A stretch of DNA of 20,706 nt from a virus. This document shows, piece after piece, positions 3,335 to 20,149 of the stretch (position 1 is the first letter of the stretch; each line of letters opens with the position of its first letter). Location: the IMG/VR virus record IMGVR_UViG_3300020183_000558, positions 1-20,706 of that record; one strand, written 5' to 3'. The position numbers and the translations under genes are program-made. The notes under the pieces were generated by a model. The model saw nothing but the letters and a program-made list of their open reading frames with translations, had not been told where the DNA came from and did no database searches.

Positions 3335-3727
3335 TTAGCCTTCTGTTCTATTTAATGTTAGGAATACGTTTCTGTCTACTTTTGGTACAGTTAAGGTTGT
3401 AACATTGACATTTACGCTCAAAATTGCATCCGTTTGTGTTACTGTAACTGTATTTACTTTTACTCTTGGTTCAAAAAAGTTTATCACATTTTTTATTTCT
3501 GATTCTAAAATTCTTCTTGATAAATCCGGTAAAACATCAAACTTTTTTTCCCAGAGACCAATTCTATTTGTTGTAAATGGCACTTCTCCATTCGAGCTTA
3601 ATATTATATTTTTAATAGATTGAATTATATCGGTTTCATTATTTTTTGTATTAATCCAATCTCCTCCCACTCTTTCTATTTTGCCTAGATTAAAATCTAT
3701 GTCTCTATATGTTGGAGTTACTGCCAT
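3335..3727 (-). CDS. 25: Baseplate wedge protein gp25
   Basis: 130 residues, close to T4 gp25 (132). gp25 links the wedges to the first sheath ring. It starts with TPTYRDIDFNLGKIERVGGD and carries N-x-x-D-I-I-Q-S-I-K-N-I-I-L-S-S-x-G-E-x-P-F, the N-terminal strand and helix conserved in gp25/W family proteins (also T6SS TssE). E-P-R-V at about residue 88 matches the family 'FEPRI/V' core motif. The family is sometimes labelled lysozyme-like, but no catalytic argument applies here. ATG 3727 overlaps the stop of the 352-residue gene by one base (TAATG), with a GGGAGA ribosome site 9 bases upstream, so it is translationally coupled. Confidence 0.95.
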   Translation of the reverse strand: MAVTPTYRDIDFNLGKIERVGGDWINTKNNETDIIQSIKNIILSSNGEVPFTTNRIGLWEKKFDVLPDLSRRILESEIKNVINFFEPRVKVNTVTVTQTDAILSVNVNVTTLTVPKVDRNVFLTLNRTEG

Positions 3728-4785
3728 TATTCTGTTTCTCCCGATTCGTCTGATTGCTTAGTTTTGTATGTCGGATTACCGTATTTATTTAGACTTGGTT
3801 CACTATATTTATCTGTATTAAATCCGTCTCTCATCAAATATAGTGCCATAGTATGTTTAGACGCCATTATAGTTCTTTCAATTCTATAAACCATCCAAGT
3901 TCCAGCAAATCTTTTATCTGTAAGAAAACTAGTACTACGAGATGTATGCAATTCGTCTTTTATAGGCATTCTAATGTTTATAAGACTGCCTATTTTTACG
4001 CCATAATCTCCATTTACTGTTATTTTTATTTGCTGAAATCTATACAACGCCATTAATGCTGCTCGTATAAGCGGTGTTTTTTCTGGAGTATTCCAAAAAG
4101 TAGCATTAGTTTTTGAATATTCTAGATAGTAAGGAAATAATGGACCTGTGATTTTTTGTGACCAAGACTGATAATTTTCTTGAACTCCATCTCCCAGAGG
4201 TAGCTGTAGCATATCATCTCTAGAAGAATCCGTATCTTGCTGTAATATTCCTTGGCTACTTATACCAGACAATCCTAAAGAATACGGATATTTGCCACCT
4301 AAATCACCAGTTGGACCAAAAAATGGCGTTTTTAATACATTTTCTTTCTTTTTTGCAACAGTTGGTTTATCTGATTCATAGTAAAAACAATTATATGGAC
4401 ATTTTTTATTAGAAAAATCAATACCCCACCAATCAGACGGCTTATTTTCGTCTATTTCTCCGTCCTTATTTGGTAAAACTTCTTGGATCAAAGTACATTC
4501 ATTAGTTGCAACTTTCATTTCTAAAATTTCTTTATCTGTAAATATTGGTTTATTTGGTCTGTATTGAGATATCAAACAATTACAAGACGGATCCCAATCG
4601 GGGCAATCTATGTTAGATACCGCACCAAATTGATTGTAACAAAAATCACTTACAGTGTTTATTGTTGATTTTTGCAAACCAAAAGAAAAAGGAACATAAC
4701 TAACACCCTCAGGTGCAGTAAATCCAGTAAAAGCACCACATTCATCAGGAGTAAAACTTACATAGTTTGTTATATTAGATGCCAT
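3727..4785 (-). CDS. Hub protein, C-terminal-like part (gp27 family)
   Basis: 352 residues. Residues about 210-320 resemble the C-terminal domain of gp27-type hub proteins: a helix (PLIRAALMALYRFQQIKI), a strand pair 'I-T-V-N-G-D-Y-G-V-K-I-G-S-L-I-N-I-R-M-P' (compare 'GN-x-x-L-x-x-G-x-x-I-x-I' of hub proteins), then FAGTWMVYRIERTI and HTMALYLMRDG (compare 'SGxYxVxxIxHxF...YxxxLxLxRDG'). The N-terminal 140 residues are different: Cys-rich (CPDWDPSCNC, CPYNC), with F-T-P-D-E-C-G at the start. The hub's N-terminal domains are encoded 7 kb upstream in the 871-residue gene, so the hub seems split. In the 13 bases between the giant gene stop and this ATG is an AATAAATA late-promoter-like sequence; no Shine-Dalgarno. 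The function is inferred from motif pattern only. Confidence 0.6.
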   Translation of the reverse strand: MASNITNYVSFTPDECGAFTGFTAPEGVSYVPFSFGLQKSTINTVSDFCYNQFGAVSNIDCPDWDPSCNCLISQYRPNKPIFTDKEILEMKVATNECTLIQEVLPNKDGEIDENKPSDWWGIDFSNKKCPYNCFYYESDKPTVAKKKENVLKTPFFGPTGDLGGKYPYSLGLSGISSQGILQQDTDSSRDDMLQLPLGDGVQENYQSWSQKITGPLFPYYLEYSKTNATFWNTPEKTPLIRAALMALYRFQQIKITVNGDYGVKIGSLINIRMPIKDELHTSRSTSFLTDKRFAGTWMVYRIERTIMASKHTMALYLMRDGFNTDKYSEPSLNKYGNPTYKTKQSDESGETE

Positions 4786-4792
4786 ATTAGTA

Positions 4793-4800
4793 TATTTATT
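4793..4800 (-). promoter_or_regulatory. Possible late promoter before the hub C-terminal gene (AATAAATA)
   Basis: One mismatch from TATAAATA, 7 bases before ATG 4785, at the junction with the giant gene. The leader would be extremely short or absent, so this is weaker than the site at 17213. Confidence 0.25.
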
Positions 4801-7800
4801 ACGAAGGCCAAGTTCTGTTTACGATATTTGCTGAATACTGTCTTAGATTGTCGGTATTGAATACGAATCCCGGTCCTAGATGTTGGAAATATGGATTCCA
4901 TCTGCTATAATCCACACTAAAACTTACATCTGTTGCTCCTCCAGTTCCGTCACCGCCGCCTAATATTACACTGCCCCAATCTGGAAAATACGCATCTAAG
5001 TAACAATTAAACCAGATAGAAGTATTCATTGCATAAAATGTTCCAGTTTTTGGTGGAGCACTAGATTGTGTCGAACAATAACATGATCTTGGAGGCCATA
5101 TTTCATCGCTTGCACTGTTGCTCCCTCCCCCTCTTACAGATTGAACCCAACGCAAACTTCCCAAATTTAATTTTACATGAGAAACAGGACTGTCATATTT
5201 TCTATGGTTCCAGCCAAGTTTAAATCCACCAAATGCTCCAGAGTAACTTTGATCAAATAATTCTAATCCAGAACAGGTTTCTGGATAACATTCTGGACTT
5301 GGGTCATTAATGAACATTGTTGCAATATTATCTTTATTTACTCCTAAGAATAAAGGAAGCTCCCATCTTCTGTGTCGCCATTCTTTGATATTTTTAAACC
5401 AATCAAATCCGTCCCAACATTGAGTTGAATTATAATCCCAAGCCCACCAATAATCTGCCCAGACCGGCGTAAGAGTACTTTTAAGTCTGTTGGTATAATC
5501 ATTTGGATTGAATGGATCTCCGTGCCATTTTCTAAAAATAATTTTGCTACTATTTCCAGTGGTTATTGGATGAGATCTGTACATAGCATTATACAGATTT
5601 CTATACTTATTTTTTCTTACATTAAATGAATATCTATCTGGTAAAACACTATTTGTTACAGATGATGGTGCTTCATTCAAGTAATTTTCACCAAAACAAC
5701 ATGCTTTTAGTATTTGTTTTTTCTTGTTTTGTGTTCTTGGGAATGGTGTTCTGTCTTCTGGATTTTTTGGATCCATTGGTCTAGAACTTGGTATTCCTAG
5801 AAGACAACCATCTTCTCTAGCCTCTACCCAATTTTCACGAATAGTGGGTTTACCATATTGTATAAAATTCCATAAAGACATACTAGAAAATTGAGTTCCA
5901 CTAGTAGTGTTGTAGATATTACCTTCAGAGCCACACTCCGTTCCTCCTCGATAATATGTGGGCTGGAATAAATCACCAATGCTGTCTCCTCCTATTTGGG
6001 TAGTCCAATAACCATCTGTAGGATTGACGAAAGCATATCCTAACCATCCTTGTGGATGTGATGCTTCAAAAGGAATATCACCAGCAACTCTATCTTTATC
6101 ATCATCTGTGTTTGTTTTCGTGGTAAAGAAGTTTGAATGCCCTCTATTACTTAGCCAATCAGACCAAAATCCTCTGACACCGGTTCCGTTTAGTTTATAA
6201 ATTGGTAAACAAAGAGTAACTGCATTTGTTAATTGCACAGGATACCAAATAGTAGCAGTATCGGGGCCTTTACCCGAATACAATATTAGAGGATCTAAAA
6301 TTTCATTTCCTTGTGATCCTATATGAAAACTTCTTCCGCCACCATAGCAATTATACCCGTTACCACACATACTCTTATTCCAGATTGGCCATGCACCAGA
6401 CATATCACCTAAACCAATTTCTCCTTGTTTACTACCAGCAGATATAGCCAATTTAGGTGAAGCACCAGACTCCAAGTAAGTAATTGGATTTTCACAATTA
6501 GCGTATTGTACTAAAGCTATACCACCAGTATCAGCATCTCCAACTATTAATTTTTGTCTTTCTTCTACAGTAAGAGATTCTGGATCTGTTTGATATTTTG
6601 TTAAAATTTCTTTTGCTGTAGTATTAACTATTGCTCTGGGATCAATATAATTAGGATCTTCTAAACTTATTCTACTATTGCACGAGCATTCATCACTGAA
6701 CCGACCCCACCTATATTCGTAATTTTCTTTTGCTTGATTTGGTTTTATTGTCTTGCCTAATTCGTTTGGATATTGTTCAAATTTTCCTTTTGCTTCTACC
6801 GTATAAAAATATCCATCATTAAGTTGAGTTTCACTTACATTATCAATCTGTACTCCTCTTCCAAACATTATAGTTTCGCCCGGAAGTAAATTTATAGGAA
6901 CCATTACTCGGAGTCTTTTTATTATTCTGCCTCCACTAGTAAATCTATCTTTAGCTATGCCCAGCCATACCCCATTTTTTCCTTGAGAATTTATTTTCAA
7001 ATTACCGATTTCTTTGTCCAGGATAATATCACCAGTTAATTCAGTTATTTCTTGAACAGCATTAACTATGTCATCATTTTGTAGATCAAATCCCCAAGCA
7101 GAAATTTTTGCTCCAGTAAATGGAATAGAGCAAGAGGAACATCCTGTTTCAGAATCGCCAGCTAAAGGTTCTATTTTATATTTTTCGTTTTGTAATAGAT
7201 TTTGATATGCTATATCTTTAGTATGAAAAAACACCCCGGGAGGAGGAGGAGTAAAATCTAAAACATTTTCTTGATCTGATCTAAATTCTGGATAATGACC
7301 CACAGCTTGTTTATACGGACCTGTTATACAAATATTTTTATTGAAAGGATATTCAAAATCTATAGAGTCTTTAATATAACGAGATTTACTAAAGCTGCTA
7401 AAGTAAACCAACGGCATAAAATTGTATGCGTATCGTGGAGGAGGAATGAATGCAGATTGTAACAGATAAGAATAAGAAGAATGTATTTCTGTCATAAAAA
7501 CAGGATCCATTCTGTTAGTAATACTCCATAGTTCTGTATCAAAATATCCTTCCATATTATATTTTGGTCCTATGTCTCCTCCATGTGCAGGAACAACAAC
7601 TAAAGGATAATCTATTTCCGTATAACTTGTGGAACTTAAAAATTCTGTATCATTTTTGTTTATCAACCAAGAATTTAATAAACCATCTTCTTCTAAAGAA
7701 GCCCATCTGGGGATTAAATAACGATTTAAAGATGGCCACGATTCTTCTATGGGTGTTGATAATTCTCCAAAAGAATTGTATTTATTTAAAGCAGCATTAT

Positions 7801-10800
7801 AAGCAGAACAATTTCCTTGTATCGATCTGTACTGATAATCACTAAATTCATATTCATCTCCATCTTCTTTTACATTCATAAAATATACTGGAGCTGATCT
7901 TATTATTATTCTTTTTAAATTTTCTCTGTCTTCTGGACCATCGTAAGGAATGAATGTAAACGTTTTTCTTTTTATTTTAGTTACCTCACCAATATTCCAT
8001 ATTATTATTTCTTGTTCTCCTGTTTCTGGATCAATTACTATTTCTTTTTGATATAGTGGTTTATTTTTTAATTCAGGAATTATTTTTTGAACCTGATTGG
8101 TTGATACTATTATTTCGTCGGGCAAAATATCACCAAAAACATTTGCAGAACATCTATATCCATATACATCTCTTATTGGCGGTGCGGTTTCTGGACAATC
8201 CCAAACTCCATATTCATTAAAAGTGCAACCAGAACATAATTGTTCATTGTAATTAAATTCACAACCGGTACAACCCATTCTGCCCATCCAACCAGTTCTT
8301 TCTGCTGTCTCATAAGTTATGCCTTTAAAGCAGGGATCACACCAATTTTGTATTATGTTATTATTGCCTCCATATGCATACTTGTTTCTACAGTATAGAG
8401 ACAGTTCTGAGGGGAATTTTCCTGGCGGAACTTCTATAATATTATGAGTAAATGAATTTGCCGGAGCATAATAATAATTTATTTTTGGTTTTAGAGGTCC
8501 ATCAGACCACACATCTGTTGGAAAATATTCTGGATTAAATGCTTTGGTTGCTGCACTTTCAAAATTTCTCCATGGTTGTTCATGACCACCAGGAGCATCT
8601 CCTTCTATTTGAGATCCTCTTAATTGATTAAAATAAACCCATTGATACGATTCAGAGGTATTTCTTATATCGGGATTGGCATCATAACCTATATGATTTA
8701 ATAAAGTTCCTTGATGACCAGCCATTTTAAAACTATCGGTTGCATAATCAGACCAGACACAATCACATGTTGCTCCCGTAAAAGGCTTAACTCTTTGATC
8801 TCCGCGTGTTCCTATAAGGTTAACAGAAATTCCATTTTGTTGAGAACTGTTTGTTTTGTCTACTTTAAAATGTAATTCTTTTTTCTTTACATTTTGCAAT
8901 TCGCCATTAATTATTTCTTTTCTGTATTTTGTGATTTTAATATCTAAATCAAATAACAAACGAGAAGAAGAATTTAAATCAAATTCTGGCTGATACCAAT
9001 CAGCAGTATTTCCCATAGATCTTAATAAAATTAAAGGACTGTCTGCCTTATCAGTAGATCTAAATCTCCAATTTAGATTACTAGATTTGTCTATTTCTCC
9101 TCTATACGGAAAATCTATTTTTGGTGGTTTATCTGGATTTTGTATTATTAAATTATGGTATCTACCAGCACTTAGATGATTTACTAATTGGTATTGACCA
9201 CTGTTGGCATTTAAAATATTTGGAATACAACCAGTACTGTCTTGTCCTTCGGGAGTTCCTACACCACCGGCACCATATACACTACTTTTATATTGTTCTT
9301 TAGTGTATGCACCACTATTAATTTCTTCTTGTGTGGGTTTTACAGAAAGCGAAGCTACGGTTCTATCGTAACCAACTGCACATTTAACAAAATATTCATC
9401 AGTATTACCAAAAAGATTAGATTCATATACAAAATGTTTATTAATATATGGAGTTGTAAAATATTCTTGTGAGTTTTTTAGACCTATTTGTGTTAGTTGT
9501 TGAAATCTATCATCTCCCCAACCATCTAACATAAATCCATATTGATTATTACAGCATTGAAATGCTTTATTTGGTTCTGTAGAGGGCTGACAACAACTAA
9601 AATAATCTTGTTCTGGTTTATAATAAGAAGATGCACCTTCGCTCAAACTAATTCTTGGTTGTTCACAACACTCATTTCCTATTTTAGATCCATCTGTGCA
9701 ACCACAACAACAATCTCCATTTCTGCATGTATTACTCTGATCAAAATTAGGATTTGTACTTGTTCCTCTAGGTATATCACACAATGCTGCATCGCCATTT
9801 TTTCTATAAATTATTCTACCGTCGTCTTGATATAAAGATTGACAATAATTATTAAACTTTTTTCTAGCAAAAACGGTATGATTTGCTGTAGACGAAGTTA
9901 TTAAAAATAAGGTATCGCTTATACCATAAAAAGTGTCTGTATATTTAATTCTTCTAAAATCAAAATACTCATCTACTAACAAGTGCATTGGAATGTTATT
10001 TTCTCCTACTTTACATTCCAATGAATTTAACTTAAACAGATAATTTGGATTGGCTTGTCGTACCAGTAATTCTCCTCCAATTGTTTGATTATATGGATCT
10101 CCAGGCATACCATTGCCCCAAGAAAAAACTCGAATAGTAACAAACCTTAGTTCAGAATCTCTTGGATTAAACTGTAACCCGGTATAAGGATCTTGAATAT
10201 GAACGATATCGTTTGAATTTAAAATATGTTTTCCAAGGTCGTATCCAGAAAGATAAACAGGATATTTTATCAAACCAACTATATGTCTACGACCAGCCCA
10301 AATATCAATAAATTCTATTTCTTTGCTTATAGGATCATTTGGTAATCCAAATTCATCTACAGAAGATTCATAAGTTTTAACAACATTAAAGAAATTTTCA
10401 CGATCTCCCCAGAATGGAATTATTTCTCCTCTTCTTATTAAATGCTGTTCTCCTATCGAGTTGGTTGCTTGAAACTTTACATCATTACCTACAATATAAA
10501 AATTAGTTGTTGCTATTCTTGGTCTTATCGATAGTCTATTACGGTAACCCGAATTACCCCATATTTCAATAACTCCGTCAGAATCTGTATTTCTTGATCT
10601 GCCATCAAAAGCTAAAGTATGCCCAGCATTTAACATGGCAACACAGTGTCCACCACCAACAGCTAGTTTTACTATATCACTAGAATTAGTTTTAAATTCT
10701 GTTGGAATAGAAAGACTACCACTATTATTAGAGCCCCAACCAGTAATTCCATCCTGTAATACTGCTATTGTGAAATCTAAACCACAATTTATGTCTAAAA

Positions 10801-11788
10801 CAGGAATTTGTTTTAATTCTTCGGGTCTGCTTAAAGTGTAACCTGCAGTTCCAGTTAAACCAAAACAATCACAAAGACCATTATCTAGCAGAACACACGA
10901 GTGGTATTCTCCTGAAGACACTTTGACTACATTGGCTCTTTGATTTTCTTCATCTAAAAATGTAATACCATCACAACCAGTTTTATAACATTCTGGTGAA
11001 ACTATAGAATCACATTTTATTTTTTTACTTAAAAAATTTATTATAGTATTAGAAAATAAATCAGAACCATTATATCCTTTAACATTTCCTGGATGTATGG
11101 CATTCCACCAGCTTATCCAATAATCTCCTGGATATGATGTATTTGTGTGTTGATTTTTATCATGTGAATACGAATTAATAATTATTTCGCCTAATCGACC
11201 GGTATAATTATAGCTTTCTACTTGTTTTGCATTTTCAAAAATATCAGGAATAATATTTGAAATCATCAGTCCTCTAGAACGTGAAGAGGTATCTGCTGTT
11301 TGATAAGGTCTGCCTACACTAGGATAATGTGTTATTAATCTGTAGTATTTGTTATCACATATTCCTTGATTTGATTCTGATGCTGCTATTTTTTCTGTAA
11401 GTGGCCATTCTGGTTTAAATCCAAAACCTTGTGGTCCAGACCAGCCACTGGGATTAACACAATCTAAAGAGTCACATACACTATATGGTTGAATTGGATC
11501 AGAATGATTCCATTCAAATGCTGGATCTGCTTTTTCTGGATTGAAAGTACCATCCAAAGATCCGTTTCTCATTATAGTTTCAATTTCTAGGGGTCCTTTA
11601 GGTGGTTTTACCACGCCTAAATCTTGCATTTCTTCTCTTAACCAAAAAGGCTTACCCCATATACTGTCTAATATAGAATTTTGAAATGGAGCACCACAAT
11701 CTTGTAAAATTTCACGACCACATGGAGATCGTGTAACTCCTGGTTTTGGCGGTGGGGTTCCACAACAATTATTGGTGATTGTAAACAT
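4799..11788 (-). CDS. Giant Cys/Trp-rich structural protein with RCC1-like repeats
   Basis: 2329 residues, the largest gene here, between the two hub-like genes. No full-length family is recognised. Residues about 287-885 hold RCC1-like beta-propeller units: SSGEYHSCVLLDNG, NCGLDFTIAVLQDG, GITGWGSNNSG, AVGGGHCVAMLNAG, WAGRRHIVGL, CAVGYDRTVASL, SAGRYHNLII, separated by long insertions. One insertion (688-746) is a Cys cluster with CRNGDCCCGC and three CC pairs. Further C-x-x-C sites follow near 1150-1190 (CDPC, CTGC, CSGC) and at about 1550 (CSSC). By hand count there are about 60 Cys in total. Residues about 1595-1685 carry a beta pattern (LLPGETIMFGRGVQI, GYFYTVEAKGKF) reminiscent of hub proteins. 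The 2050-2120 region is very Trp-rich. No signal peptide or membrane segment. An in-frame stop lies just 6 bases before ATG 11788, so the start is firm. Likely a virion baseplate component, by context. Confidence 0.75.
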   Translation of the reverse strand: MFTITNNCCGTPPPKPGVTRSPCGREILQDCGAPFQNSILDSIWGKPFWLREEMQDLGVVKPPKGPLEIETIMRNGSLDGTFNPEKADPAFEWNHSDPIQPYSVCDSLDCVNPSGWSGPQGFGFKPEWPLTEKIAASESNQGICDNKYYRLITHYPSVGRPYQTADTSSRSRGLMISNIIPDIFENAKQVESYNYTGRLGEIIINSYSHDKNQHTNTSYPGDYWISWWNAIHPGNVKGYNGSDLFSNTIINFLSKKIKCDSIVSPECYKTGCDGITFLDEENQRANVVKVSSGEYHSCVLLDNGLCDCFGLTGTAGYTLSRPEELKQIPVLDINCGLDFTIAVLQDGITGWGSNNSGSLSIPTEFKTNSSDIVKLAVGGGHCVAMLNAGHTLAFDGRSRNTDSDGVIEIWGNSGYRNRLSIRPRIATTNFYIVGNDVKFQATNSIGEQHLIRRGEIIPFWGDRENFFNVVKTYESSVDEFGLPNDPISKEIEFIDIWAGRRHIVGLIKYPVYLSGYDLGKHILNSNDIVHIQDPYTGLQFNPRDSELRFVTIRVFSWGNGMPGDPYNQTIGGELLVRQANPNYLFKLNSLECKVGENNIPMHLLVDEYFDFRRIKYTDTFYGISDTLFLITSSTANHTVFARKKFNNYCQSLYQDDGRIIYRKNGDAALCDIPRGTSTNPNFDQSNTCRNGDCCCGCTDGSKIGNECCEQPRISLSEGASSYYKPEQDYFSCCQPSTEPNKAFQCCNNQYGFMLDGWGDDRFQQLTQIGLKNSQEYFTTPYINKHFVYESNLFGNTDEYFVKCAVGYDRTVASLSVKPTQEEINSGAYTKEQYKSSVYGAGGVGTPEGQDSTGCIPNILNANSGQYQLVNHLSAGRYHNLIIQNPDKPPKIDFPYRGEIDKSSNLNWRFRSTDKADSPLILLRSMGNTADWYQPEFDLNSSSRLLFDLDIKITKYRKEIINGELQNVKKKELHFKVDKTNSSQQNGISVNLIGTRGDQRVKPFTGATCDCVWSDYATDSFKMAGHQGTLLNHIGYDANPDIRNTSESYQWVYFNQLRGSQIEGDAPGGHEQPWRNFESAATKAFNPEYFPTDVWSDGPLKPKINYYYAPANSFTHNIIEVPPGKFPSELSLYCRNKYAYGGNNNIIQNWCDPCFKGITYETAERTGWMGRMGCTGCEFNYNEQLCSGCTFNEYGVWDCPETAPPIRDVYGYRCSANVFGDILPDEIIVSTNQVQKIIPELKNKPLYQKEIVIDPETGEQEIIIWNIGEVTKIKRKTFTFIPYDGPEDRENLKRIIIRSAPVYFMNVKEDGDEYEFSDYQYRSIQGNCSAYNAALNKYNSFGELSTPIEESWPSLNRYLIPRWASLEEDGLLNSWLINKNDTEFLSSTSYTEIDYPLVVVPAHGGDIGPKYNMEGYFDTELWSITNRMDPVFMTEIHSSYSYLLQSAFIPPPRYAYNFMPLVYFSSFSKSRYIKDSIDFEYPFNKNICITGPYKQAVGHYPEFRSDQENVLDFTPPPPGVFFHTKDIAYQNLLQNEKYKIEPLAGDSETGCSSCSIPFTGAKISAWGFDLQNDDIVNAVQEITELTGDIILDKEIGNLKINSQGKNGVWLGIAKDRFTSGGRIIKRLRVMVPINLLPGETIMFGRGVQIDNVSETQLNDGYFYTVEAKGKFEQYPNELGKTIKPNQAKENYEYRWGRFSDECSCNSRISLEDPNYIDPRAIVNTTAKEILTKYQTDPESLTVEERQKLIVGDADTGGIALVQYANCENPITYLESGASPKLAISAGSKQGEIGLGDMSGAWPIWNKSMCGNGYNCYGGGRSFHIGSQGNEILDPLILYSGKGPDTATIWYPVQLTNAVTLCLPIYKLNGTGVRGFWSDWLSNRGHSNFFTTKTNTDDDKDRVAGDIPFEASHPQGWLGYAFVNPTDGYWTTQIGGDSIGDLFQPTYYRGGTECGSEGNIYNTTSGTQFSSMSLWNFIQYGKPTIRENWVEAREDGCLLGIPSSRPMDPKNPEDRTPFPRTQNKKKQILKACCFGENYLNEAPSSVTNSVLPDRYSFNVRKNKYRNLYNAMYRSHPITTGNSSKIIFRKWHGDPFNPNDYTNRLKSTLTPVWADYWWAWDYNSTQCWDGFDWFKNIKEWRHRRWELPLFLGVNKDNIATMFINDPSPECYPETCSGLELFDQSYSGAFGGFKLGWNHRKYDSPVSHVKLNLGSLRWVQSVRGGGSNSASDEIWPPRSCYCSTQSSAPPKTGTFYAMNTSIWFNCYLDAYFPDWGSVILGGGDGTGGATDVSFSVDYSRWNPYFQHLGPGFVFNTDNLRQYSANIVNRTWPS
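9134..10930 (-). repeat. RCC1-like repeats with long insertions in the giant protein
   Basis: This encodes roughly residues 287-885 of the giant protein. The 'G-x-x-H/F-x-x-x-L-x-x-G' units begin near residues 291, 333, 375, 497, 803 and 873. The matching W-G strands are at 351, 409 and 557, with G-W-G-D-D near 757. Spacing is irregular because of large insertions, including the Cys cluster encoded at 9551-9727. More diverged than the gp53 propeller, but the same type. Confidence 0.65.
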
Positions 11789-14421: not shown

Positions 14422-16338
14422 TTATTCGAATTCAGAAATATTATAATTTAATTCTTTTTTACCGGCTAACAGGTCTTGGTAGATTTTAGAATCTATTTTT
14501 TGCAATAGATTAGAATCAGCATAAATAAATTCTTGTTTTAGTAGTATATTATACTCATCATAAATTTTTTGTAGTGTTATCAGTCTATTATCTTTATCTG
14601 GAGTAGAATAATTAGTTATATAAACAGTCTTCCATATGTTTTCTGTGACTGGTTGTGATTCGTTGTCTATTCGTATTTCTACTGTTGAATTCTTTTGCTT
14701 TTGTATACCTATAAGTTTATGTCTTATTTGATTAACTTCTTCTCCATTTCTCCATATGGATACAACTGTTCCTGTTGGATCGTCTAAGAATAATTCATCG
14801 GTTGTTAAGTTTCCACCATAAACTTTACACACAATTCGTTTATAATCTAAATCTACTTGTGTAACAATTCCAGCAAATCGTTTAGTCGAACCTGTTAATC
14901 CCCTAAGAACAACATGACTATCTCCAGAATAAATTTTATCAAATTGTCCGTATATGGTGTAGTCGGATAAAGTATAATCGCTTTGTGTAATTCCTGTTAT
15001 TGTAGCTCCACTAAATCCTGCTTTGGGTATCTTACCCCAAGCGTACACTTCATTATTTTCAGTTATTGCGGCTGAATGTTTTTTACCTGCAGCTATAGCT
15101 ATAAATGTTTTATTTGGTACATTACATTGACCATGTGCTGTCATTCCCCATGCATATACTGTTCCATCGGTTTTTCTTGCAAGTGCATGATTGTATGTTG
15201 CGGATACTTCAACAAATCCTGTTCCAGATGGCATATTTGTTATTTGGCCGTAATCGTTGGCTCCCCAAGCAGTAAGACCACCATTTCCCATAACTCCAAC
15301 ACAAAATTGATTTCCACATGCAACATCTATAAAAGTTACCCCAGTAGGAGCACCAGTAAAATTATAGTCAACCAGATAACCTGTAGATCTAAGAACTACA
15401 CCACCGTGTGCTCCTGTGTCTGTTACATGATACCATGAAGTTTTTATTCCGGTTGTTATACCGGCTAAATAATCTGTCAGCTCACTATAAACATTACCAA
15501 AAAATTCTAAAGTACCACTACTATTTATGGCAATTAGTTTATCATGGCTGGCTTCTATAAATGTGTATCCGCCTTCCGGGGATTTATATATGGGCTGTCC
15601 GTTTATATCATCATTATCAATAAAAGAAGCAAATCCACTGTTTAAAAGAGATTCGTCGCCCCAGCAGTAGATGTATCCATCTTTATCTCTAACACACGTT
15701 ATCTTTTGCCCAGCAGTTAATTGCACTATATTATTATGATTATCGAATAATATGGGAACTAAAGATTGACCGTAATGGTGCCAATTTTCTAATTTATTTT
15801 CATAATACAATGCTTCTATAGTAGAAGTAGCACGTAAAATACCAGCACCAAAACATTTAATAGCATACGGCCCCATTCCTGTTTCAAAAATAACAGTGTC
15901 GCCTATTTGCACTTGACTTAAATCAACCCCTTCATAGGAATCAATATCTGTCTGTTCGTACAGATTAAAAGCGGTTCCATCATAAGTAATCGACGCCTCT
16001 GCTGTGGAAGGCAAAAACGGAGAAGAATTTGAAAATTGTAATACTCTTGTATCGTATCTTTCAAGTTCTTCATATGTTCCTTTTTGGCCCAGTATAGTAG
16101 TCCAATCAAATGGATTTTTAATTCCATTTAATAACATTAATAACCAATAATAGTTGTAATTTCCATACAACCTAAGCGACAGCTGTTCTGGTCTTTCTCC
16201 AGAATAAACTGTTTCTGTTTCAACAAATTCTGGATCGTCTATACTCAGATTAACCGATTTAAAAATATTTTTAATATCCTTTAAACCACCAGTTGCACCA
16301 AAATTATATGATGTTAAATTGGGAAAGTATTTAATCAT
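14422..16338 (-). CDS. 53: Baseplate wedge protein gp53 with inserted RCC1-like propeller
   Basis: 638 residues, against 196 in T4 gp53, which clamps wedges together at the inner baseplate. Residues 1-90 are a clear gp53 N-terminus, including the LysM-like unit: VYSGERPEQLSLRLYGN, then YYWLLMLLNGIKNPFDW (T4: GSPRPEELANAIYGN, YWVLLMCN). From about 204 to 480 lie RCC1-type repeats, for example AGQKITCVRDKDGYIYCWG, ACGNQFCVGVMGNGGLTAWG, ARKTDGTVYAWG, AAGKKHSAAITENNEVYAWG and SGDSHVVLRG. They sit inside a beta domain that resumes at FAGIVTQVDLDYKRIVCKVY. The C-terminal 60 residues are helical. The start is firm: ATG 16338 overlaps the gp48 stop (ATGA) and an AAAAGGA ribosome site ends 6 bases upstream. 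Product roles: wedge joining (family knowledge) plus an unknown propeller role. Confidence 0.88.
   Translation of the reverse strand: MIKYFPNLTSYNFGATGGLKDIKNIFKSVNLSIDDPEFVETETVYSGERPEQLSLRLYGNYNYYWLLMLLNGIKNPFDWTTILGQKGTYEELERYDTRVLQFSNSSPFLPSTAEASITYDGTAFNLYEQTDIDSYEGVDLSQVQIGDTVIFETGMGPYAIKCFGAGILRATSTIEALYYENKLENWHHYGQSLVPILFDNHNNIVQLTAGQKITCVRDKDGYIYCWGDESLLNSGFASFIDNDDINGQPIYKSPEGGYTFIEASHDKLIAINSSGTLEFFGNVYSELTDYLAGITTGIKTSWYHVTDTGAHGGVVLRSTGYLVDYNFTGAPTGVTFIDVACGNQFCVGVMGNGGLTAWGANDYGQITNMPSGTGFVEVSATYNHALARKTDGTVYAWGMTAHGQCNVPNKTFIAIAAGKKHSAAITENNEVYAWGKIPKAGFSGATITGITQSDYTLSDYTIYGQFDKIYSGDSHVVLRGLTGSTKRFAGIVTQVDLDYKRIVCKVYGGNLTTDELFLDDPTGTVVSIWRNGEEVNQIRHKLIGIQKQKNSTVEIRIDNESQPVTENIWKTVYITNYSTPDKDNRLITLQKIYDEYNILLKQEFIYADSNLLQKIDSKIYQDLLAGKKELNYNISEFE
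14899..15729 (-). repeat. RCC1-like propeller repeats within gp53
   Basis: This encodes roughly residues 204-480 of the gp53-like protein. Six to seven degenerate units of 35-55 residues are visible, each with the pattern [A/S]-x-G-x-x-H/F-x-x-[A/V]-x-x-x-x-G-x-[V/L]-x-x-W-G. The best are the ones ending YCWG (about 227), TAWG (359), YAWG (398) and YAWG (435). The repeats are at protein level only; no direct DNA repetition is seen, so they are old or fast-diverging. In RCC1 proteins seven such units close into a circular beta-propeller used for protein or DNA binding. Confidence 0.85.
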
Positions 16339-17235: not shown

Positions 17236-17685
17236 ATGGCCTATAAAACAAAATATACACCAGAAAACCCCCAAAAGTATACAGGAAACGTCAACAACAT
17301 AATTTGTAGATCTCTTTGGGAACGCAAGTTTTGTAAGTATCTTGATAGCAATCAAAATGTTATTCGGTGGGCAAGTGAAGAGATAAGAATACCGTACATG
17401 TCTACAATTGACAATTCTGTGCACTATTACTATCCCGATTTTATATTTGAAGTGAAAAATAAAGACATGATACAGACTTTTATGGTGGAAATTAAACCAA
17501 AAAAGCAAACTGTTAAACCCAAACCAAAGAAAAATAAAAAAACATATTTGCAAGAATCTATATTATTTGAAATAAATACTTGTAAGTGGAGTGCTGCTCG
17601 CAAATATTGCGAAAAACAAGGTTGGATATTCAAAATCTTAACAGAAGATGATATATTCAAAACACCAAAAAGGACTAACAACTAG
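17236..17685 (+). CDS. 4: Head completion protein gp4 (PD-(D/E)xK nuclease fold)
   Basis: 149 residues, like T4 gp4 (150). It is needed to finish DNA-filled heads before tails attach. The sequence follows T4 gp4 closely: KYTPENPQKYTGNVNNIICR, SLWERKFCKYLD, W-A-S-E-E-I-R-I-P-Y, H-Y-Y-Y-P-D-F, V-E-I-K-P-K-K-Q-T. The nuclease-type residues are intact: E29 (LWER), D68 (YPDF), E85 and K87 (VEIKPKK), a TnsA-like PD-(D/E)xK arrangement. A Lys/Pro-rich loop (PKPKKNKK) follows. ATG 17236 sits about 16 bases after the late box, with no Shine-Dalgarno. The next gene starts at the base after its stop. Confidence 0.94.
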   Translation: MAYKTKYTPENPQKYTGNVNNIICRSLWERKFCKYLDSNQNVIRWASEEIRIPYMSTIDNSVHYYYPDFIFEVKNKDMIQTFMVEIKPKKQTVKPKPKKNKKTYLQESILFEINTCKWSAARKYCEKQGWIFKILTEDDIFKTPKRTNN

Positions 17686-18333
17686 ATGGCATCAAATATA
17701 AAAAGCGTAGGTTGGCCAACAGGGTCACCTAAAACAATAAACGAAATAATTAATCAAATAACAGTATGGGGCGTTCAAAGACCCAACAGATATGCTGTAG
17801 AATTTATAGATTGTCCAGTTTCTCAGTCTGGTGGAAGTTCACCGTATGTTTTCTTTGCCACAATGGTACAAATTCCACAAAGAACTACTAACTATTTTTC
17901 TGATTCTGTTGGTCCTTTTAGCCCATATTGGGATGTTCCTCTAAAAACAGAATACGACGATCATTATATAATTAATTTTTTAGTCGATAAAAACTGGTCT
18001 ATTCGTAGCCTTATAGAAGCATGGATGGATCATACCATTGGAGGAACCATAAACACCGAAGGTTACATCTATGGAACTAGTGCCAAAGGAGCAAGTTTAG
18101 TTCCTGTCGCAGCTCGTACTGGTGATTCTAAAATAAAAATAACAGGAATATCCACCGCCGAAAATAACAAGCAAACTGGTACAATTACATTACATCAAGC
18201 ATGGCCTAAACTCATACTTCCAACTCAATTCGATACTGGTGCAAACAACCAACCTCTAATAATGAGTGTGGACTTTTCTTATAGATACTATACTTTTGAT
18301 AATTTATCTCATATACCAGATGCTTCAACCTAA
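17686..18333 (+). CDS. 54: Tail tube / baseplate tube initiator protein (gp54/gp19 type)
   Basis: 215 residues. The pattern is that of the tail-tube fold: RPNRYAVEFID (compare gp19 'RPNLFQVEI', gp54 'NMFSCVF'), F-A-T-M-V-Q-I-P-Q-R-T, a central I-I-N-F-L-V-D strand followed by a helix with a W (SIRSLIEAWMDH), then TGTITLHQAWPKLI and a last strand SVDFSYRYYTF. In T4, gp19 (163 residues) is the tube itself and gp54 (320) is the first tube ring on the hub. Size is intermediate. Neighbours gp48, gp53 and gp26 favour gp54, because gp19 normally follows the sheath gene gp18, which is not here. A weak AAGGA lies 11 bases before ATG 17686. Confidence 0.7.
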   Translation: MASNIKSVGWPTGSPKTINEIINQITVWGVQRPNRYAVEFIDCPVSQSGGSSPYVFFATMVQIPQRTTNYFSDSVGPFSPYWDVPLKTEYDDHYIINFLVDKNWSIRSLIEAWMDHTIGGTINTEGYIYGTSAKGASLVPVAARTGDSKIKITGISTAENNKQTGTITLHQAWPKLILPTQFDTGANNQPLIMSVDFSYRYYTFDNLSHIPDAST

Positions 18334-18338
18334 TTATT

Positions 18339-19043
18339 ATGAAAACTTTTAAAAAATCATTTCCAAAATATAATGTAAAATTGTCCTCGGGCAAAAAGGT
18401 TTCGTTTAGACCATTCACAGTAAGAGAAGAGCAATCCTTACTAATAGCCAAACAAACAGATAATAATAACGACATACTATCAACATTGATACAAATAGTA
18501 TCCGATTGTTACGAAGAAGACGCAAAAGAATATAGCATAAGTGATTTTGAAACTGCTTTTCTTTATCTAAGAGCAAAGTCTGTTGGAGAAATTGAAAAAG
18601 CAACAATAGTGTGTCCTTATACTGGCGAACAGGTCAAAGTAATAGTCGATTGTATAAATGATATACAAGTAAAAGGAAAAAAACAATCAAACAGTTTAAA
18701 ACTAGACGATTGTGTATTAAAATTAAAAGAAATTACCGTTAAAGAATTACTGTTAAATCCAGATTACAATAAAACTTATGAAGATAAAATAAGTTTTATA
18801 GCAAATAGTATAATTTGTATAGAGAAAAATGAAGAAATAATAAACAGCTCTGATATTTCTTTAGAAGATAGAATACTATTTTTAAACAATTTAACCCCCA
18901 AAGAATTTAAAAAGATAATAGAATATTTTGATAATACATCTAAACTTTTCTTTAATTTACAATATAAAACAAAAAATGGAGAAGAAAAAATTACAGAACT
19001 TTCTGGCACATTTAATATTATTAGTTTTTTTTTAACCACATAA
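18339..19043 (+). CDS. 26: Baseplate hub assembly protein gp26 (possible tail assembly chaperone)
   Basis: 234 residues (T4 gp26: 208). The family marks are SFRPFTVREEQSLLIA at about residue 25, L-I-Q-I-V-S-D-C-Y near 50, FLYLRAKSVGEI near 80 and a P-Y-T-G-E strand; T4 gp26 has RPFTV and LRAKSVGEI in the same places. gp26 is required for hub assembly in T4. The last codons are TTT TTT TTA ACC ACA TAA, inside a run of nine T (19025-19033) that contains the frameshift heptamer T TTT TTA (19028-19034). A fraction of ribosomes may therefore continue in the -1 frame (see the next entries). The start codon follows 5 bases after the upstream gene. Confidence 0.88.
   Translation: MKTFKKSFPKYNVKLSSGKKVSFRPFTVREEQSLLIAKQTDNNNDILSTLIQIVSDCYEEDAKEYSISDFETAFLYLRAKSVGEIEKATIVCPYTGEQVKVIVDCINDIQVKGKKQSNSLKLDDCVLKLKEITVKELLLNPDYNKTYEDKISFIANSIICIEKNEEIINSSDISLEDRILFLNNLTPKEFKKIIEYFDNTSKLFFNLQYKTKNGEEKITELSGTFNIISFFLTT
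19028..19034 (+). promoter_or_regulatory. Putative -1 ribosomal frameshift site (T TTT TTA)
   Basis: This is a canonical X-XXY-YYZ slippery heptamer in the gp26 reading frame, 6 bases before the gp26 stop (19041-19043). The -1 frame is closed by a TAG at 19022-19024, just before the T run, and is open from 19025 to 19183, which includes the 35-residue ORF. A slip gives join(18339..19034, 19034..19183), 281 residues. The T9 run could also cause transcriptional slippage. The only downstream fold noticed is a weak 6-bp hairpin at 19068-19083. Confidence 0.6.
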
Positions 19044-19075
19044 CTTTAACTACTTTAATAAATCTGATATTTCAA

Positions 19076-19183
19076 ATGAAATACCACCATCACTTCAGTT
19101 TACAAGAGATAGAAGAACTAATACCTTGGCAAAGAACCGTGTACATTCAACTTATAACTAACGAAATAGAAAAAGAAAAATAA
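19076..19183 (+). CDS. Small protein / frameshift extension of gp26
   Basis: 35 codons from ATG 19076 (product begins MKYHHHFSLQEIEELIPWQR and ends NEIEKEK). If entered by the -1 frameshift it gives a 49-residue tail on gp26 that begins NHITLTTLINLIF. The 'E-E-L-I-P-W-Q-R-x-x-Y-I-x-L-I' core looks like the helical segment often encoded right after the tail assembly chaperone in tailed phages. In lambda, Mu and P2 a frameshift joins such a segment to the chaperone. There is no Shine-Dalgarno upstream of ATG 19076. The 3-base gap to the next ATG suggests coupling. T4 gp51 or gp28, small hub assembly factors, are alternative counterparts; I cannot decide by sequence. Confidence 0.65.
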   Translation: MKYHHHFSLQEIEELIPWQRTVYIQLITNEIEKEK

Positions 19184-19186
19184 AAC

Positions 19187-20149
19187 ATGAAAGAACCAAT
19201 AGAAAACAAAGAACTAGTAAATTCTTCTGATTTTTTTTCTGATTCTGGTGTAATAAAAGAAGAACCTGTTGTTTCTGATCAGATACAAAAAGTTTCATCA
19301 AACACACAAACTACTCCTGAAATAAGAAAAATTTCAGGAGAAGCAGCAAATGCGTCCGATATTCAGATTGAAAAAAATATAAATGTCGATTTAGAACCAG
19401 CTAAATCCAAACAAACAGAACAAATTACACAACAACCAAATTCTGATGTTTCTTCCACTAAAGAAGAACCTCCCCAACAAAAAATATCAGAAAAACAATT
19501 AAAAGATATTTGGAATTTATCTAAAAAGGGAGAAATAGAAAGAGCAAAAAAGGGAGATTTTGGTTCATTTAAAATTTTAAGTAAAGAAGAAAGAGCAGAT
19601 TTATCTAAAGAATCTAGAATACATTACGATAGAATGGCTTCTTTAAAAAGAAAACAAGATCTTAAAGAAGCAAGACAAGGAAATTTTTCGTCTTATAAAA
19701 AATTAGATAAAGAACAGTTAGATACCATGTCTACTGAAGACGTTAATCTATACAATTCTATAACCAGATTAAAAAATAAATCAGAAAAAAATAACGGTAA
19801 TATCAGTTTTCAACAATCACTACAAGTAGAAAAAGAATTTCCAGAAACATCGTTAACAAAAACTAATAGAAAAAATCCTTTAACACCATTTCATTCTACA
19901 TCAAACACAATGCAATCTGATGCGTTCCAAGAAAACGTAAACGCATTCCAAGCAATTTCGGCTTATAAACCACAGTTAAATACTAATCAACAAAAATTTA
20001 CACAAGATGATATTAATGTGAGGCCCACTTATAATGTGTTAGAACAAGATTCATCTCCACCAATTCCTCATCGTTCAAAATATTCGTATGTGGATATTTT
20101 AAATAATGAATATAAAAATATTCCATCATTTAAAGCTAAATTTGGTTAA
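19187..20149 (+). CDS. Hydrophilic repeat-containing protein of unknown function
   Basis: 320 residues, not recognised. Residues 1-100 are Ser/Thr/Gln/Glu-rich and probably disordered (SSTKEEPPQQKISEKQ). Residues 100-200 are Lys/Glu-rich and helical, with two repeats: 120-156 (AKKGDFGSFKILSKEE start) and 162-198 (ARQGNFSSYKKLDKEQ start), 14 of 37 positions identical without gaps. The C-terminal 120 residues are Asn/Gln/Pro-rich and end KNIPSFKAKFG. No membrane segment or signal peptide. It is the last gene of the rightward operon, directly after the chaperone-like pair, where many phages encode the tape measure. But T4 gp29 is 590 residues and largely helical, and this protein lacks the long hydrophobic helices expected. 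A scaffold or assembly factor is as likely. Confidence 0.75.
   Translation: MKEPIENKELVNSSDFFSDSGVIKEEPVVSDQIQKVSSNTQTTPEIRKISGEAANASDIQIEKNINVDLEPAKSKQTEQITQQPNSDVSSTKEEPPQQKISEKQLKDIWNLSKKGEIERAKKGDFGSFKILSKEERADLSKESRIHYDRMASLKRKQDLKEARQGNFSSYKKLDKEQLDTMSTEDVNLYNSITRLKNKSEKNNGNISFQQSLQVEKEFPETSLTKTNRKNPLTPFHSTSNTMQSDAFQENVNAFQAISAYKPQLNTNQQKFTQDDINVRPTYNVLEQDSSPPIPHRSKYSYVDILNNEYKNIPSFKAKFG
19544..19780 (+). repeat. Two 37-residue protein repeats
   Basis: Units at 19544-19654 and 19670-19780 encode residues 120-156 and 162-198. The shared pattern is A-x-x-G-[DN]-F-x-S-[FY]-K-x-L-x-K-E, then S-x-E, Y and L-K-x-K. The DNA copies differ widely, so the duplication is not recent. Confidence 0.8.

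Follow-up and report, generated by a model that had tools for sequence, protein, structure and literature searches.

Programmed -1 frameshifting late in a short tail gene yields a short and an extended product in phages lambda (gpG/gpGT) and P2 (E/E+E'), and in both a gene of tail-tube type and a large one resembling tape measures lie nearby. In a passage on this G-T frameshift, Atkins et al. (2016) call it conserved among phages with long tails, 'except T4' (PMC5009743). T4 has the proteins gp26 and gp51, which a table in Leiman et al. (2010) lists as hub assembly chaperones, and the passage of that paper on gp51 presents it as essential, of unknown function, required for assembly and absent from the finished particle (PMC3004832). 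The lines on gp51 in Sullivan et al. (2010) give the cyanophage protein as ~20% of the usual length, with the first ~200 residues missing, and Aeh1 as having no gp51 (PMC3037559).

Here we describe IMG/VR virus record IMGVR_UViG_3300020183_000558, a stretch of 20,706 nucleotides (nt) with T4-like tail genes that was analysed over its whole 20.7 kb and is called the window below. The mRNA of its gp26 gene very probably carries a programmed -1 frameshift, by which both gp26 and a gp26-51 fusion would be made in the manner of G/GT. A search of the open literature (titles, abstracts and selected passages, with papers behind subscription, Xu et al., 2004, among them, outside its scope) did not find a report of a gp26 frameshift.

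The gp26 junction in the window and its relatives

The gp26 gene (18339..19043, plus strand) encodes a G-like zero-frame product of 234 amino acids (aa), which belongs to the T4 gp26 family by its score of 129 bits against PF12322 (E-value 2e-37; curated cut-off 24.5) and also matches phrog_150 (E 5.6e-37). The gene ends in the zero-frame codons AGT TTT TTT TTA ACC ACA TAA. The first-pass annotation had proposed that a slippery heptamer here joins gp26 to a small downstream open reading frame (ORF), and direct reading bears out every element of that layout: T_TTT_TTA at 19028..19034, in the correct X_XXY_YYZ phase of a classical -1 heptamer; a TAG (19022..19024) that shuts the -1 frame just 5' of a run of nine T (19025..19033) enclosing the Ts of the heptamer; and a -1 frame that is open from 19025 to 19180 (52 codons), ends in TAA at 19181..19183 and is in frame with a 35-codon ORF starting at ATG 19076. 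The fusion would be 281 aa long, with 49 residues added to gp26. Taken alone, the window makes a weak to moderate case that is only suggestive, since in-phase X_XXY_YYZ heptamers are common in it (72 of 6,445 codon steps, or 1.1%, six of them inside gp26) and 48 open -1 codons have a chance of P ~0.012 in a window so AT-rich.

A scan of IMG/VR with the window gp26 as a single protein found no relatives. Relatives were collected by alignment-based queries (two IMG/VR profile scans of 80 loci each, the contigs partly shared), and after removal of identical junctions 139 non-identical ones, drawn from several phage groups and down to ~30% identical to the window, entered the site counts. In the first two examined, S-RIM50 and S-SCSM2R, gp26 ends AGT TTT TTC GCN stop, and the -1 frame opens just 5' of the T run and encodes FFR(I/L)...NFAL...PWE..IY. 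An in-phase T_TTT_TTN stands at the equivalent place in 136 of the 139 relatives, almost always 6-9 nt 5' of the stop; within gp26 bodies the same pattern occurs 11 times per 31,173 codon steps. The last codon of the heptamer is TTC in 118, TTT in 13, TTA in 4 and TTG in 1. The first position of the heptamer is the third, wobble base of a codon for Ser, Asp, Ala, Asn or Phe; it is always T (136/136), independent of the residue encoded, where codon use predicts ~0.60, and the first Phe codon of the site is TTT in 136/136, compared with 0.70 in the gp26 body. Judged by these counts, the feature is kept across the relatives far beyond chance. The heptamer is missing from three: T4 gp26, CBA120 and a contig (L110) that seems to be truncated. 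In the last of these the heptamer and the gp26 end are missing near the gp26 stop and the -1 tail is kept, probably through a contig error or a deletion.

Many relatives also carry a Shine-Dalgarno-like (SD-like) element, as GAGG is found 10 nt 5' of the heptamer in 83 of 136 and GGAGG in 52. The Glu codon at this element is GAG in 72% of cases and in 31% in the gp26 body, an excess suggesting that the DNA, beyond the protein alone, is selected. The same combination of a heptamer with an upstream SD-like stimulator is found in E. coli dnaX, which many gp26 relatives resemble in the spacing of ~10 nt.

The extension (19034..19183, plus strand; 49 aa and a stop) supplies the 'gp51' or T-like domain of the fusion. 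Its 35-codon ORF (19076..19183, plus strand), for which ATG 19076 is a possible but unsupported start of its own, corresponds to the known C-terminal domain of 'gp51', represented by phrog_634, 'baseplate hub assembly catalyst' (T4 gp51). The 35-aa ORF matches this family at 41.0 bits, rising to 48.6 bits once the spacer 5' of the ATG is added (E 1.7e-12 for the extension), and a -1-tail profile built without the window behaves alike (48.8 bits with the spacer, 41.3 without; E 2.6e-17). Because the profile scores rise when it is included, the spacer between the slip site and ATG 19076 is probably coding, although the single-sequence signal is small, with shuffled spacer residues equalling the score of the real spacer in 3 of 200 random orders. 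AlphaFold predicts the tail as three helices. A weak Pfam match of the tail to KRAB was dismissed as chance.

Frame and substitution tests were run on 124 alignable relatives. The -1 frame is open in all 124, while the zero frame is stopped in 123 and the +1 frame in every one, which rules out +1 as an alternative. Across -1 codons +4 to +20 the ratio of nonsynonymous to synonymous substitution rates (dN/dS) is 0.17, and it is 0.19 in that stretch in the 26 relatives with no ATG, GTG or TTG in the open -1 frame 5' of codon +20; selection on residues beyond the reach of any usual start codon argues for entry from gp26. An SD-like core lies 4-14 nt 5' of the first in-frame ATG in 0 of 129 cases, versus 51 of 135 at gp26 starts. 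By these sequence measures the -1 frame appears to be translated as protein. Conservation of the slippery site and the open -1 frame across T4-like phages, with synonymous bias 5' of the first internal start, was a check proposed in the first-pass annotation, and its outcome is positive; the signs that it named as contrary, stops in the -1 frame or synonymous loss of the heptamer, were met nowhere outside T4 itself, the Ackermannviridae (heptamer absent, -1 tail kept) and the one truncated contig. Three parts of this account have direct support from the alignments: the site is conserved, the -1 tail is coding, and both that tail and the body of gp26 are homologous to T4 gp51.

T4 genes 26 and 51 and the spread of the junction

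T4 gp26 and gp51 each match PF12322 (gp51 over residues 1-201) and align with one another (E 2e-6), and beyond that region T4 gp51 has a C-terminal segment whose alignment to the -1 tail begins at the slip point. When whole genomes were searched with a -1-tail profile free of T4, 44RR and Klebsiella CP-p-KP-21068 sequences, a single place was found in each of these three phages, the C-terminus of gp51 (E 8e-6, 1.7e-10 and 7e-7, respectively). T4 gp51 is thus, by alignment, a gp26 paralogue carrying the same tail fused in frame; T4 gp26 is the homologue of the zero-frame product, and T4 gp51 that of the frameshift fusion, tail included. Unlike the window, T4 has two separate, divergent genes and the Klebsiella phage two tandem ones, and a frameshift is not needed.

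We consider it probable that an ancestor of T4 had the gp26/gp26-51 frameshift still present in cyanophages, vibriophages, Aeromonas, Rhizobium and further phages of the T4 superfamily, that gene duplication replaced it in T4-type phages, and that genes 26 and 51 are the equivalents of G/GT, acting on the tape measure gp29. In a protein tree, a branch supported at 95/95 separates T4-type gp26 and gp51 from 24 gp26 proteins, three of them from Ackermannviridae. As the tree is unrooted and its branches are long, we can only infer the direction, frameshift first and duplication later; in favour of it are how widely the frameshift is distributed and the presence of its layout in four genera inside the Straboviridae (Schizotequatrovirus, Cinqassovirus, Angelvirus and Ishigurovirus). 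T4 would then have looked exceptional to a near-universal tail-assembly frameshift because the same two proteins apparently come from separate genes. If true, this would be a natural example of gene duplication replacing a programmed frameshift; it gives a concrete prediction for T4 genetics, and also offers an explanation for the tie of gp26 and gp51 to the hub that contains the tape measure.

The same layout is found in Kyanoviridae, in Eurybiavirus P-HM1, in the Rhizobium/Sinorhizobium phages RL38J1, phiM9 and phiM12, in Stenotrophomonas BUCT608, Pseudomonas Milchi, and Vibrio D482 and phi-ST2 (Schizotequatrovirus), in Cronobacter S13, Citrobacter Ci1 and Aeromonas Aeh1, PX29 and 65, and in S-CREM2, which has a 418-nm tail. 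The -1 tails of Aeh1, 65, PX29, phi-ST2, phiM12, phiM9, P-HM1, S-CREM2, BUCT608 and Ci1 are recognised with E-values of 5e-8 to 2e-32, and those of Aeh1 (3762-3929 of locus L183) and S13 (3711-3875 of locus L089) are unannotated gp51/T tails in the -1 frame. The short 'gp51' of cyanophages and vibriophages is the same -1 tail as that of the window, and we interpret it as the C-terminal portion of a gp26 fusion. The short cyanophage gp51 would be explained if gp26 itself supplies the missing part via the frameshift, as would the reported lack of gp51 in Aeh1, where the site is present and the -1 tail is missing only from the annotation. The result is relevant to how hundreds of genomes with gp26 homologues are annotated.

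Proposed products and alternative explanations

In the proposed scheme most ribosomes would reach the zero-frame stop and make the 234-aa gp26, and a minority would slip back one base on T_TTT_TTA, with the Phe and Leu tRNAs re-pairing, to make the 281-aa gp26-51. By analogy with lambda gpG/gpGT, the short product, made in abundance, would cover the tape measure protein, while the helical, T-like C-terminal domain of the rarer long product would bring in components of the tail tube or hub; both would be absent from the virion. T4 and the phages closest to it would have lost the frameshift, with duplication leaving 26 as the short form and 51 as the fused long form. We infer the slippage itself, its rate, the fusion as a minority product, the chaperone role, its partners and the action on the tape measure.

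Two marks of G/GT pairs are seen, an in-phase slippery site close to the end of the short ORF and an open, conserved shifted frame that leads to a longer product, and the gene order fits in part, with a gene of tail-tube type before gp26 in the window and a candidate tape measure gene after it in phiM12 and D482. The gp26 locus differs from that of lambda in that its slippery site is a T run, its body is a 230-residue PF12322 domain, and no similarity in sequence or fold was found. The correspondence of gp26 and gp26-51 to gpG and gpGT is, on this analogy, the most likely one. The first-pass suggestion that gp26 is a tail chaperone therefore stands in part: the architecture and the T4 literature favour it, but the comparison with gpG that was to test it gave no match, so that gp26 may be said to work like G/GT and not to be a gpG homologue. 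Homology does not define this class, as G/GT-type chaperones are said in a passage of Atkins et al. (2016) to share little sequence (PMC5009743).

Several observations weigh against the frameshift or the chaperone role. Shared ancestry makes the relatives non-independent, and the statistics are therefore exaggerated by the raw counts of conservation. The window lacks the upstream SD-like element, although its T run is longer, and unlike E. coli dnaX the gp26 site has no conserved downstream hairpin: a conserved stem-loop 3' of the site was not found, RNAalifold predicts zero pairs, and downstream RNA folding has a mean z of only -0.97 (-0.05 in a control stretch). The Ackermannviridae retain the -1 tail after gp26 without an X_XXY_YYZ heptamer. 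With hhalign, the gp26 profile did not match lambda gpG and the -1 tail did not match P2 E'. A fold search of the PDB with the gp26 model returned nothing at E<=0.001 (the HK97 chaperone 2ob9 had E 0.55 and a template-modelling (TM) score of 0.18). In the window, the gene that follows the site cannot be recognised as a tape measure; relatives have larger genes there. According to a passage of Leiman et al. (2010), part of the genetic work on T4 assigns gp26 to the hub (PMC3004832). PDB sequence searches with the gp26 and -1-tail profiles likewise gave no matches. The AlphaFold model of gp26 is a confident fold (predicted local distance difference test, pLDDT, 90.8) and resembles other 'baseplate hub' predictions.

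The small ORF might instead be a gene in its own right, gp51, whose translation starts at an ATG of its own or through stop-start coupling once gp26 has terminated, with the open -1 frame upstream being incidental. Current annotations list gp51 in this way, many relatives have an ATG 3-8 codons from the site (in 65 of them at codon +5), and TGATG or TAATG overlaps occur in several. We regard this as very improbable, as the stretch before codon +20 is under purifying selection even in the 26 relatives without a usual start codon there, the first in-frame ATG is never preceded by the SD-like core frequent at gp26 starts, the invariant heptamer would be left unexplained, and the body of T4 gp51 is itself gp26-like and meets the tail near the slip point. 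Even less probable, to a degree that we give it hardly any weight, is that transcriptional slippage on the T run makes a fusion mRNA. Nine Ts in a row, as in the window, are a length that permits RNA polymerase slippage, whereas six are too short for efficient slippage, and 118 of 136 relatives have just six followed by C; nor would transcriptional slippage need the codon phase, which is fixed, or account for an SD-like element at dnaX-like spacing. It is somewhat less remote, though still unlikely, that gp26 and its extension are built into the baseplate hub as structural proteins, with their stoichiometry in the particle set by the frameshift, and do not act as chaperones. The family names read 'baseplate hub' and the T4 genetics mentioned above points the same way; against this, the finished T4 particle does not contain gp51, which is tabulated together with gp26 as a hub assembly chaperone (PMC3004832), and S-CREM2 gp206 (gp26) and gp207 do not appear in the portion of the virion protein list of PMC10665884 that was considered.

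The Ackermannviridae loci examined were those of CBA120 (L087, around 3325), Vi01 (L164), D509 (L165) and YC (L181). D509 and YC have a TAATG stop-start overlap, and CBA120 and Vi01 have neither heptamer nor overlap; another mode of recoding or coupling for the -1 tail is possible in this family.

Neighbouring genes

Directly 5' of gp26, in the position of lambda V relative to G, lies a tail-tube-type gene (17686..18333, plus strand; phrog_45, E 4.8e-20). Downstream, an ORF of 320 aa (19187..20149, plus strand) holds, by position only, the place of the tape-measure-like gene in relatives; it matched no Pfam family and only weakly some PHROGs of unknown function. In phiM12 a gene annotated as similar to tape measures lies one short ORF past gp51, and in D482 the downstream gene matches the tape measure family phrog_4200 (E 1.1e-6). 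Profile comparison of the genes 3' of gp51 with T4 gp29 gave no match. The two genes after gp26/gp51 have 1,565 and 1,456 codons in S-CREM2 and 879 and 936 in S-RIM50, and the size of the S-CREM2 genes would be consistent with a tape measure there. The S-CREM2 pair (15937-25008 of locus L182) consists of two very large tandem 'endolysin' virion genes directly after gp26/gp51, one of which may be an unrecognised cyanophage tape measure.

Three further features of the window were seen. The 320-aa ORF appears by eye to contain an internal duplication (GDFGSFKILSKEERADLSKESRIHYDRMASLK / GNFSSYKKLDKEQLDTMSTEDVNLYNSITRLK). Two genes of the baseplate region, at 14422-16338 and 4799-11788 (minus strand) and of 638 and 2329 aa, show RCC1-like repeats, also judged by eye (e.g. 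ALARKTDGTVYAWGMTAHGQC). The gene at 17236-17685 encodes a head-closure protein of gp4 type (PHROG E 1.4e-51) in which Pfam recognises a TnsA-like endonuclease domain (E 3.8e-19).
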